Source of the DNA: Undibacter mobilis | Lineage (GTDB): Bacteria > Pseudomonadota > Alphaproteobacteria > Rhizobiales > Xanthobacteraceae | DNA: 64,000 bases | Assembly (NCBI RefSeq): GCF_003367195.1 | Contig: NZ_QRGO01000002.1 | Coordinates: 62,001 to 126,000, forward strand | Direction: 5' to 3' | In this document: positions 42,849 through 46,471 of the stretch, in pieces | How the letters are laid out: each line of letters starts with the position of its first letter | Numbering within the stretch: the stretch's first letter is position 1 | The notes under the pieces: generated by a model | The model's input: the letters and a program-made list of their open reading frames with translations, nothing else | The model's database searches: none | Told to the model about the DNA's origin: nothing | Program-made: the position numbers and the translations under genes

Positions 42849-44192
42849 CTAGCTTTGGACCAGCGCCCCGCCCGGCTCCTGGGCTTCGCCCTCCAAAATC
42901 GGATGCGCCATGGCATGGTGCAGCGCCGCCTTGTCGAGTTCGCCCTCGGAGCGGCTGATGACGATGCAGGCGACGCCGTTTCCGATCAGATTGGTAAGCG
43001 CACGGCATTCGCTCATGAACTTGTCGATGCCCAGCAGCAGCGCCAGCGAGCCGATCGGAATATCCGGCACGATGGCGAGCGTCGCCGCCAACGTCACGAA
43101 GCCCGCGCCGGTCACGCCGGACGCGCCCTTCGACGTGATCATGGCAATGCCGAGAATGCCAAGCTCCTGCCAGATGGTCAGGTGCGTGTTGGTCGCCTGC
43201 GCCAGGAACAAGGTGGCCAGCGTCATGTAGATGTTGGTACCGTCGAGGTTGAACGAATAGCCGGTCGGAATGACCAGACCGACGACGGGACGTGAAGCGC
43301 CGAGATGCTCCATCTTCTGGATCATCTGCGGCAGCACGGTTTCAGACGACGACGTACCGAGCACGATCAGCAATTCATCCTTGATGTAGCCGATGAAGCG
43401 GATGATCGAGAAGCCGGCCATGCGCGCGATGGCGCCAAGCACCAGCAGCACGAACAGCAGGCTGGTCAGGTAGAAAGTGCCGATCAGCGCGATGAGCTTG
43501 GTGAGCGAGCCGATGCCATAGGCGCCGATGGTGAAGGCCATGGCGCCGAAAGCGCCGATCGGCGCCACGCGCACCACGATGCGGATGATGCCGAAGAACA
43601 CTTTGGCCGCCTGGTCGATGGCGTTGGCGATCGGCTGGCCGCGCTCGCCGAGTGCAGCGATCGCGAAGCCCGACAGAATCGACACCAGCAGCACCTGCAG
43701 CAGGTCGCCGCGCGCCAGCGCACCGACATAGCTGTCCGGAATGATCGCCAGCAAATGCGCGACGATGCCGTCTTCCTTGGCTTTCGTCACATACGTCGCG
43801 ACCGACTTCATATCGAGCGAAGCCGGATCGATATTGAAGCCGGCGCCGGGCTGCAGCAATTCGCCGACGATGAGGCCGATGGCGAGCGCCAGGGTCGACA
43901 CGATTTCGAAATACAGCAATGTCTTGACGCCGACGCGGCCGACGCGCCGAAGATCGCCCATCGACGAGATGCCGTGCACCACGGTGCAGAAAATGACCGG
44001 CGCGATCATCATCTTGATCAAGGCGATGAAGCCATCGCCGAACGGCTTCATCGCCTTGCCGAGATCGGGCCAGAAATGGCCAAGCGCGATGCCGATTGCG
44101 ATGGCGATCAGAACCTGGATGTAGAGAATGCGGTACCATGGGTTACGTGGACGCGCGGCTGTGGCCGGCGCCGGAATGGCAATTTGCGACAT
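42849..44192 (-). CDS. dctA: C4-dicarboxylate transporter DctA
   Basis: Proton- or sodium-coupled symporter for succinate, fumarate and malate of the DAACS/glutamate-carrier fold. 447 residues from ATG 44192 ([20 protein letters not shown]). Hairpin and transport motifs [10 protein letters not shown] and [20 protein letters not shown] are intact. No DctB/DctD sensor pair or obvious sigma-54 promoter is present. It lies on the same strand 204 bp after the ion-channel gene. Confidence 0.94.
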
Positions 44193-44396: not shown

Positions 44397-45467
44397 TCAG
44401 GCCGGCAAGGCACGCATCGTCGCGCCGATGCAGACGATGGCCATGATCGCCGGAAGCGCCCAGCGCAGATGCCTCTGCAGGGCCAGCCAGGCCGCAACAT
44501 GACCGCGCTCTGCCGCGATCAGCCGCGACAGCACGACGTCCGACAGCAGGACGACGATCAGATAGAAATAGCCCAGCGATATGATCTGCGCGACCGGCGT
44601 ATTGAGCGAGATAGCGCCCGGAAAACTCGCCTCGAACGTGAAGCTGAGTGCGGCAAGCGCCAGCATCGACGAGAAGATTTGCGTGCCCTTCTCCTTGCCG
44701 GTCAATTCCGGCGTCCACAGGATGAAGATCGACACCGTGAGCACTGCGAGGATCGGCACGAAGATGCGCAGGATGTATTGCTCGGAATGGCGCAACACCT
44801 GAACGGTTGCGTTGAGCCGCGAATAGAAACGCGCGTTCCAGCCGACCGCTTCCTCGTTGGCAAAACGCGGCCGTTCCGCTTTCCAGTCGGCAACCGACAG
44901 CGTGTTCTCGACGTCCGACAGCTTGCGATCTTCTTCGGTTGCCAGCAGAATCGCTTCCTGCTTGGCGTAACGCGGCAGCGACATCGACAAGGTCAGGTTC
45001 TGGCGGTCAAATGGAAAGGCCGCAAGGTTCATGGCGAAGCGGAAATCGCTTTCGTAACGCTCGATCAGCGTGACATCGCCATCTGAATGGACAGACACCG
45101 CCATGGTGCGGGACGTCTTATCGCCAGTCTGGTTGTCGACCGCGAGCTGCGGCGTCCAGATGGTTTTGAGATAGGCGTCGGCGTCCGGCCCGACATAATC
45201 GGCGCGTGCAAAGCCGCGCGCGATCGGATCGAAACGCAGCCGACTGTCGGTCCAGCGCTGCGTCACCTCGATGGACAGGCGGCCCTGCCCCGCAACTTCC
45301 GCGATCCTGAGAATGTTGAGCACGCGCAACGCGACGCGCACGCGCACCGGCAATTCGCCGGGCGGCAGCGCTGTCACCGCCGTCATCGACGGCGTATCGG
45401 CCGCCTTCGCCGGCAGCGTGGCAATGGCTGCCGCGAGCAAGAGAAGAACTGCGAGCAGCCGCCTCAC
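44397..45467 (-). CDS. Prokaryotic pentameric ligand-gated ion channel (GLIC/Cys-loop superfamily)
   Basis: 356 residues. Signal peptide 1-23 (IATLPAKA), then the extracellular ligand-binding domain with the family hallmarks WTDSRLRFDP (72-81), IWTPQL (103-108), DGDVTLIERY and the Cys-loop-equivalent AAFPFDRQNL (149-158), which has proline but no cysteines, as in bacterial members. Four membrane helices follow: M1 YILRIFVPILAVLTVSIF (231-248), M2 about 260-280, M3 about 293-314, M4 about 335-353. Aligning M2 with GLIC and nicotinic receptors from memory puts E259 at -1', K260 at 0', T262 at 2', S266 at 6' and L269 at 9', suggesting a cation pore. Start is GTG 45467, overlapping the sensor gene's stop as GTGA. 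Confidence 0.88.
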   Translation of the reverse strand: MRRLLAVLLLLAAAIATLPAKAADTPSMTAVTALPPGELPVRVRVALRVLNILRIAEVAGQGRLSIEVTQRWTDSRLRFDPIARGFARADYVGPDADAYLKTIWTPQLAVDNQTGDKTSRTMAVSVHSDGDVTLIERYESDFRFAMNLAAFPFDRQNLTLSMSLPRYAKQEAILLATEEDRKLSDVENTLSVADWKAERPRFANEEAVGWNARFYSRLNATVQVLRHSEQYILRIFVPILAVLTVSIFILWTPELTGKEKGTQIFSSMLALAALSFTFEASFPGAISLNTPVAQIISLGYFYLIVVLLSDVVLSRLIAAERGHVAAWLALQRHLRWALPAIMAIVCIGATMRALPA

Positions 45468-46471
45468 TTCGACGCCTCGCGCCGCGTAATGGCGAACTGG
45501 AACAGCACGACGAAAACCAGAAAGGCAAGAATACCGCCGCACAAAGCGGTCACCCACAGTTCGATGCGGGTTCGCGCCAGACCCGCGAGCGGATCGTCTT
45601 TCAGCGCAATGATGAGGCCGACCAGCCGGCCGCTGAAGTCGACCAGCGGTTCGATCGAAGTGCTATAGTTGCGGCCATCGAGACGCACGGTGCCGATTTC
45701 GAGATCGCGCACCGGCGACACACGCTCCTGCTTGAGAAAGCGCGTGAACAGATCGGAGTCGGTCGACACCGCGAGCGCCAGATCGCCGAACCGCGGCAGC
45801 TTGTCGTCAATCTTCACGCCGCTCATCGACGGCACGATCACCACGGCGGCGTCGGCATTGGCTGAGGCCTTCACCATTTCGAGGATCGGCTGGATCGCGA
45901 CGCCGGCCTCGGCTGTGCCGACAAAACGCCCCTCGTAATTGATCACCGCAATACCGCGCATGCCGATGCCGGCGATGCCGATTTCCACACCGGTCTGCGG
46001 CTGGCGGCTGCGGTTGGCCGCAACCACCATCGAGCGGAAGGCCGAAATGTCGTCGTCAAACTGCTCCGGGCGGTGCATGCGCAGGAAATAGTGAAGGTCC
46101 TCGGAGTGATAGCCGAAGATCTCGATGCCGGCGTTGTTCTTGACGTAGTCGAACACCGGCGCGGACACCCGCCGCAACATATCGCGGTCGCGAGCAGCCA
46201 TCGCTCGCCCAACCTGGTCGCGGCGGGCCGTTGTCTCCGCCAGCGCCTGCGCCAGCTTGCCGGCCTGGTCGAATGCCGAATCCAGCGCGCCGCTGACCAG
46301 CTTCATCTGGGCGATGCGGTCTCGGTGCGCCGTCTCCTGCATCGCGTTGCGCTGAACCGCCATCATTGCGGCGAGCGTCGCCGCCAGAACGGCAGCCATC
46401 GCGAGCGAATACCAAATGGAGGCAACGAAAAATCGCGGGCGGACGGCGCCCTGCTCAGACTGTAACGGCAC
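45464..46471 (-). CDS. Periplasmic double-Cache-like sensor protein with no output domain
   Basis: 335 residues. One membrane helix near the N-terminus (about 16-38), a periplasmic region of about 265 residues, a second helix (about 306-327), then only eight cytoplasmic residues (ITRREASK). The periplasmic part resembles double-Cache domains of chemoreceptors and cyclases: GIEIFGYHSEDLHYFLRMH, QFDDDISAFRSMV, GVEIGIAGIGMRGIAVI and FVGTAEAGVAI. With no kinase, cyclase or methyl-accepting domain, its signal must pass through the membrane or periplasm. Start is GTG 46471. Its stop overlaps the channel start by 4 bp, so the two are co-translated. Confidence 0.8.
   Translation of the reverse strand: MPLQSEQGAVRPRFFVASIWYSLAMAAVLAATLAAMMAVQRNAMQETAHRDRIAQMKLVSGALDSAFDQAGKLAQALAETTARRDQVGRAMAARDRDMLRRVSAPVFDYVKNNAGIEIFGYHSEDLHYFLRMHRPEQFDDDISAFRSMVVAANRSRQPQTGVEIGIAGIGMRGIAVINYEGRFVGTAEAGVAIQPILEMVKASANADAAVVIVPSMSGVKIDDKLPRFGDLALAVSTDSDLFTRFLKQERVSPVRDLEIGTVRLDGRNYSTSIEPLVDFSGRLVGLIIALKDDPLAGLARTRIELWVTALCGGILAFLVFVVLFQFAITRREASK

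Follow-up and report, generated by a model that had tools for sequence, protein, structure and literature searches.

A pentameric ligand-gated channel gene overlapping a dCache_3 gene in Undibacter mobilis, and the channel clade marked by this pairing

A 64,000-nucleotide stretch of the Undibacter mobilis genome (contig NZ_QRGO01000002.1, positions 62,001 to 126,000; hereafter the window) carries, on its reverse strand, a gene for a predicted pentameric ligand-gated ion channel (pLGIC) whose start overlaps the end of a gene for a membrane-anchored protein with a periplasmic dCache_3 domain. This pairing defines one clade of channels and is exclusive to it in the samples taken. We propose that the two genes encode one receptor-channel unit in which the Cache protein serves as a chemoreceptor-derived sensory subunit, perhaps for an organic acid, and we give this proposal a probability of roughly 0.55. 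Its direct support comes from the assignment of both proteins to their families, the linkage within one clade, the overlap of the genes, the conserved signature of the sensor and the absence of a cytoplasmic output domain from the sensor. A predicted operon of an acetylcholine receptor-type ligand-gated ion channel (ART-LGIC) gene and a stand-alone Cache gene is described for one bacterium, Rhodopseudomonas, in a passage of Tasneem et al. 2004 (PMC549065), where cooperation of the two products is proposed.

Results

Sequence comparison confirms the product of 44397-45467 as a pLGIC. The protein matches PF02931 (E = 1.5e-19; 70.8 bits against a cut-off of 26), is the only PF02931 match found in a search of its genome, and contains the WTD/FDP, WTP and FPFDRQ motifs. 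Its nearest solved relative is GLIC, the proton-gated channel of Gloeobacter, and a phmmer alignment of the two (residues 36-344, E = 2.7e-16) spans the ligand-binding domain (LBD) and the membrane part. Because the protein has a single Cys, residue 346, it lacks the Cys-loop disulphide; the Cys pair is missing in prokaryotic members of the family too, as noted in part of PMC549065.

The partner protein matches PF14827 (dCache_3) over residues 60-287 (E = 3.1e-17; 63.4 bits against a cut-off of 25.7), as do 10 of 10 further partners scanned. In its AlphaFold2 model (mean predicted local distance difference test score, pLDDT, 93.7; predicted template modelling score, pTM, 0.84), a long N-terminal helix passes through the first transmembrane (TM) segment, TM1, and leads into the two lobes of the Cache domain; the C-terminal helix is TM2, beyond which the cytoplasmic tail is about 8 residues long (range about 7-10). 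TM2 is better conserved than TM1, with mean pairwise identities of 0.61 and 0.44 in the 33 rows of the window-type subclade and of 0.30 and 0.26 in all 78 Cache rows. No HAMP or MCPsignal Pfam match was found in the window partner, which is thus not classed as a methyl-accepting chemotaxis protein (MCP). The tail after TM2 has at most 18 residues in 37 of the 78 partners and 21-66 residues in partners of other subclades, and one of the 10 partners scanned (locus L090; L and G numbers are our handles for loci and genomes) passes the HAMP cut-off, at 25.8 against 25. Since the tail is short in many partners it appears dispensable, and signal transfer is therefore to be sought elsewhere; any signal from the partner probably passes through the periplasm or the membrane.

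The Cache gene's stop overlaps the channel gene's start in the sequence ...AAGTGAGG..., and a stop/start overlap recurs in 62 of the 77 pairs in which the Cache gene comes first. Four bases are held in common in 57 of the 77, as [A/G]TGA, and one base in 5, as TGATG; the remaining 15 pairs have other spacings, 13 of them with a candidate start within 7 bases of the stop. With an overlap that is kept in relatives, the two genes are predicted to be a translationally coupled pair. They lie in the same frame at L070, L080 and L092, and no open frame in 125 loci matches both profiles, proteins longer than the length windows of the survey not having been sought elsewhere. A first-pass annotation of the window had named a pLGIC, a two-TM protein of double-Cache type with about eight cytoplasmic residues, and a GTGA shared by their reading frames, all of which are borne out by the matches, the model and the overlap. 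The features of the pair are collected in Table 1.

Table 1. Positions of the paired genes, their parts and the nearby transporter gene in the window
Feature	Position	Strand	Description
dCache_3 partner gene	45464..46471	(-)	335 aa, GTG at 46471, stop at 45464; TM1, two-lobed periplasmic Cache, TM2, short tail
Cache TM1	46358..46411	(-)	About residues 21-38; helix in model, poorly conserved
Cache lobe 1	45875..46291	(-)	About residues 61-199; CitA/DcuS/DctB-like; R131, D141, R146, E163, R172
Cache lobe 2	45578..45856	(-)	About residues 206-298, membrane-proximal; from model and dCache_3 match
Cache TM2	45497..45562	(-)	About residues 304-325; better conserved than TM1 in window-type subclade
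GTGA overlap	45464..45467	(-)	Stop of Cache gene and start of channel gene
Channel gene	44397..45467	(-)	Pentameric ligand-gated channel by PF02931 and GLIC alignment; 356 aa, GTG start at 45467, stop at 44397
Probable channel signal peptide	45393..45467	(-)	About residues 1-25; approximate, read from sequence by eye
Channel ligand-binding domain	44790..45356	(-)	Residues 38-226, range of PF02931 match
Loop-C motif G209-W210-N211	44835..44843	(-)	Specific to Cache-linked clade; W210 in 79/79 against 0/29 others
Pore helix M2 region	44628..44702	(-)	Residues 256-280; E259 -1', L269 9', A273 13', F276 16', from GLIC alignment
DctA, C4-dicarboxylate transporter	42849..44192	(-)	204 nt downstream of channel, same strand; context, outside the claimed unit

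The frequency of the pairing was surveyed at 68 loci fetched from named genomes by channel alignment alone, blind to the Cache gene. The Cache gene adjoins the channel in 66 of these loci on a first pass and in 67 with a wider Cache profile, which added a decayed copy in which both genes are reduced to remnants (L094); the 68th locus (L095) starts within the channel, its match running from residue 139, and is cut by the end of its contig. With an adjacent Cache gene or remnant at 67 of 68 blind loci, the pairing is therefore beyond chance. PF02931 genes of any kind were also sought in whole-genome samples, with some genomes in more than one sample, and were found in 24 of 397 genomes of the window's own order, 7 of 398 of its phylum, 12 of 244 of the phylum of Pseudanabaena, 3 of 48 of the class of G435, 2 of 250 of the order of Acidovorax and 5 of 101 of the order of the Methylococcales locus. 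The 68 blind loci, eight handle genomes and the samples gave 123 channel loci in total, 91 of them with a Cache gene; the unselected order survey taken by itself has a Cache gene at 11 of 27 channel places.

Removal of 12 duplicates and three short pieces (L094, L137 and L147) left 108 distinct channels for a tree. One branch (support 100/99) comprises 79 channels, 78 with a Cache gene and L095 as the 79th, and it contains all the channels that have a stand-alone dCache_3 gene beside them. None of the 29 channels outside the clade has a Cache gene, 28 of them having been viewed over 1.2-1.5 kb upstream and 0.8-1.3 kb downstream; at L135, a non-clade locus, only 693 bases lie upstream of the channel core, and the absence of a partner is weakly tested there. 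The short pieces L137 and L147 have no Cache gene. The Cache label requires 2 changes on the channel tree, one of which is L095, compared with 26.4 in shuffles. On this unrooted tree a single gain of the Cache link is the simplest reading and not proof, and outside the clade the way in which some long branches join is uncertain. The first-pass annotation had staked its claim on a profile search and on a survey of the gene pair: PF02931 places the channel in the neurotransmitter-gated family, and inside this channel branch the two genes are almost always neighbours.

Clade members come from the Rhizobiales, from Reyranella, from the Beta- and Gammaproteobacteria and from cyanobacteria of the Pseudanabaena type. 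L087 is labelled Bordetella parapertussis, but the label is that of a metagenome bin, and the species is not to be trusted. A tree of the 78 Cache proteins matches the channel tree on most subclades. On both trees the betaproteobacterial Acidovorax and Ideonella are nested in the window's subclade of 33, the rest of which is alphaproteobacterial where named, and both genes have therefore moved there as a unit.

Clade channels retain the canonical residues of the family, with P152 and D154 in 79 of 79 rows and W72, W104 and P106 in 97-99%. Comparison of the 79 with the 29 other pLGICs identified clade-specific residues in segments that we take to be loop C (W210, see Table 1, and G209), loop F (D180 and S184) and the pre-beta5 loop (G85, R88 and A96, plus an insertion relative to GLIC), as well as in M2-M3 (A270, T277, G299 and Y302); the pore has A13' and F16' in all clade channels. 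Since loop C is conserved throughout the clade, the channel's own orthosteric site has not been abandoned, and the loop may bind ligand or touch the Cache partner. In the channels of L090, L091 and L017, an extra low-complexity stretch of roughly 40-105 residues lies between the signal peptide and the LBD.

The strong conservation of loops C and F across the clade is also what would be expected if the channel had its own agonist at the loop-C site and the Cache protein were an assembly or trafficking helper, or an auxiliary subunit that does not sense. The obligate linkage and the coupling would suit a subunit or a chaperone equally well, and the short tail of the partner fits such a role. The ligand lobe, however, retains the invariant residues of its chemoreceptor-type relatives, which a mere scaffold would not need, and we regard this explanation as unlikely, albeit one to be taken seriously.

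Where the partner came from is suggested by a search of the 397 genomes of the order with a Cache profile (A2; five candidates scored per genome), which had matches in 61. The ten strongest matches and one weaker match (G167) are the 11 genes that adjoin 11 clade channels. Of the remaining matches, four in short frames are partial, and those spanning most of the profile occur in frames no shorter than about 580 aa. As the pair gene of G019 sits in a 659-aa frame, frame length alone is a rough guide, and seven long-frame matches were therefore scanned for domains; all seven are dCache_3-HAMP-MCPsignal chemoreceptors. The partners and these chemoreceptors have identical invariant residues in the putative ligand lobe.

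Such kinship could mean instead that the two genes have an operon and a cue in common and that their products never touch, the Cache protein pairing with full-length chemoreceptors and the channel acting alone. HAMP and MCPsignal in seven of seven output-bearing relatives would be in keeping with this arrangement, but the stand-alone full-length Cache copies of the order survey all adjoin channels, many partners have the short tails described above, and the U. mobilis genome has one match to the Cache profile (with the 5 best of 20 first-look candidates scored) and no second despite 23 MCPsignal matches. The chance that the two proteins work apart in this way seems very slim.

The putative ligand lobe gives some indication of what might be sensed. 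Its fold is of the CitA/DcuS type, and a CitA-like carboxylate sensor is the best model for lobe 1. The basic pocket of CitA consists of Arg66, His69 and Arg107; R172 of the partner aligns with Arg107, and R131, which is invariant in the partners, may be the equivalent of Arg66.

Tasneem et al. (PMC549065) supposed, in the part of their paper on such operons, a link to motility, and it was proposed there that the Cache protein presents the ligand, concentrating it or handing it to the orthosteric site of the channel, so that ion flux would alter motility. Among the 10 pair genomes examined, MCP domains occur in all and FliG in 9. The Cache protein is membrane-anchored, however, and not a soluble binding protein, and, among the pair genomes, G167 lacks a FliG match and has a single MCP match; a motility link is therefore possible but not required. 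We consider ligand presentation improbable.

DctA (NCBIfam PRK01663, 655.5 bits against 513), which follows the channel gene in the window, is only a hint. A DctA 84% identical to that of the window lies about 0.5 kb after the pair at L038, and DctA proteins 56-57% identical to it are encoded about 1.8 kb before the Cache gene at L061 and L065. No third gene is common to the pairs, as clusters of flanking genes outside the pair reach at most 12 of 69 neighbourhoods, all in Rhizobiaceae; the widespread clusters that overlap the pair proved to be its own genes plus antisense or shifted frames and not extra neighbours. A gene for an AraC-type regulator, identified from the sequence by eye, flanks 10 of the 69 pairs (L037, L039, L040, L042, L043, L049, L050, L061, L065 and L079, in Bosea, Methylobacterium, Rhodoplanes and Rhizobium), and it is possible that this is a shared regulator or merely a member of a common family.

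Other channel branches have neighbours of their own. In a non-Cache branch from genomes of family f44 in the window's order, a glutamate decarboxylase gene lies directly upstream of the channel on the same strand at four of four loci (L015, L018, L019 and L020). The neighbours at L015 and L020 match TIGR01788 with 425 and 411 bits (cut-off 380.4), and there the channel ATG begins 28-29 bases away from where the decarboxylase stop codon starts; those at L018 and L019 are 72-73% identical to the profile-matched one. Since a neighbour of this kind has been published for ELIC (a passage of PMC3119659), these loci may be ELIC-like modules for GABA or amines. At L147, from the phylum of Pseudanabaena, a gene for a CheB methylesterase (459.6 bits against 342) on the reverse strand ends shortly ahead of a divergent pLGIC-like gene. 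The candidate ATG of the latter begins 9 bases away from where the cheB stop codon starts; a direct chemotaxis link for another channel branch is possible. In Pseudanabaena sp. M53, a second pLGIC-like gene, read by eye, is located just upstream of the decayed Cache-channel pair (L094:4700-6740), of which pieces of both partners survive together.

Discussion

How might the two proteins act as one receptor-channel unit? The dCache_3 protein would be a sensory subunit that descends from a chemoreceptor, has lost its HAMP and kinase-control parts and is anchored in the inner membrane by its two helices. Its membrane-distal lobe would bind a small anion, with a di- or tricarboxylate as the likeliest candidate, and the state of this site would be relayed to the adjacent pentameric channel by periplasmic or membrane contacts, with cation flow across the inner membrane then becoming ligand-dependent. 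Physical contact between the proteins, the class of the ligand, the direction of its effect and the cation selectivity of the unit are elements that we infer, and the short tail of the partner is taken, on an unrooted tree, to reflect loss and not an older state. The first-pass annotation had pictured a two-gene receptor-channel system; this stands as the best reading, and sensing of a ligand by the Cache protein, with gating of the channel or delivery of the ligand to it, keeps its conditional place in the model.

A further-reaching version, the odds of which we put somewhat short of even, is that a two-part ligand-gated channel arose in one event, in which the kinase-control module of a chemoreceptor sensor was swapped for a separate pentameric pore, and that recognition by the Cache protein, and not only by the LBD of the pentamer, gates it. 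If true, the pLGIC would have an obligate sensor subunit encoded by a gene of its own, through which an organic-acid signal is converted directly into ion flux.

Several observations weigh against a receptor-channel unit of this kind. The channel retains clade-specific orthosteric loops and might gate without its partner. The order of the genes is reversed at L142, the only such pair, with the channel first and the Cache gene immediately behind it on the same strand. The two trees conflict on L013 and on the Reyranella-type group (L022, L026, L058, L064 and L077), and partner exchange, or tree error, is therefore possible there. Mutual information on 78 pairs (Neff 51) picks clade-specific columns; this covariation is dominated by clade structure and proves nothing. 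With regard to the ligand, the pocket His of CitA and DcuS is not conserved in the partners, the Arg-His spacing differs, and the sequence match of the partner to CitA is weak (E = 0.02-0.27). By Foldseek E-value the order is Mlp24, an amino-acid chemoreceptor, then DctB and LuxQ, with many amino-acid receptors next, and DctA is near only 4 of 69 pair neighbourhoods. Finally, an acid at -1' accompanies cation selectivity in known members of the channel family, and such an acid, E259 in the window, is present in 59 of the 79 clade channels. Nine of the 79, including the Pseudanabaena rows, have Pro at this position, and ion selectivity may therefore differ among the clade.

The Rhodopseudomonas operon of PMC549065 has the same arrangement as the pair in the window, and the Rhodopseudomonas loci L046, L052 and L053 belong to the clade. 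One bacterium was considered in that part of the earlier work, whereas the pairing extends here over a whole clade, several classes and two phyla with a conserved overlap, to which kinship with chemoreceptors and a carboxylate-type fold of lobe 1 are added. What is new is thus the clade-wide exclusive linkage, the overlapping genes, the chemoreceptor kinship and the retained signature of the ligand lobe. Among the literature matches listed, from a collection outside which most subscription papers and bioRxiv lie, the channel-Cache pair is described only in PMC549065, and the terms Cache, operon, Rhodopseudomonas and Bradyrhizobium do not occur in the pLGIC inventory PMC4795631.

The pair can also be set beside other bacterial channels and sensors. 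GLIC is of the same family by sequence over the LBD and the membrane part, and clade channels differ from it in the loop-C Trp, the pre-beta5 insertion, the Phe at 16' and the separate Cache gene (the gene neighbours of GLIC were not inspected). The gene for ELIC adjoins one for glutamate decarboxylase (a passage of PMC3119659), and an operon neighbour hints at the ligand in that case as here; the ELIC neighbour may make the ligand, whereas the neighbour in the pair looks like a sensor of it. An extra periplasmic modulatory module is likewise reported for DeCLIC and other channels with N-terminal fusions, where it is in the same chain and not, as here, a separate membrane protein. The dCache_3-HAMP-MCPsignal chemoreceptors have the same sensor domain and invariant residues as the partner, which lacks their MCP signalling domain and has a channel gene in its place. 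With the carboxylate sensor kinases CitA, DcuS and DctB, the partner has in common the fold of lobe 1 and one pocket Arg, but not a conserved pocket His or a kinase; it has two lobes, as does DctB. The alpha2-delta protein of voltage-gated calcium channels, mentioned in a passage of PMC549065, is also a Cache-bearing auxiliary channel subunit. Its channel is unrelated and eukaryotic, and the likeness is a parallel only.

To our knowledge, few bacterial pLGICs have an established natural role or agonist. A partner that is exclusive to them and has a ligand lobe of the chemoreceptor type provides a testable handle on the gating of a whole pLGIC branch, and the pairing suggests that, within the pLGIC superfamily, receptor and pore may be distinct subunits. 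The pair would also offer a compact system in which to study the control of a channel by an auxiliary Cache subunit, a theme that alpha2-delta has made familiar in animals.
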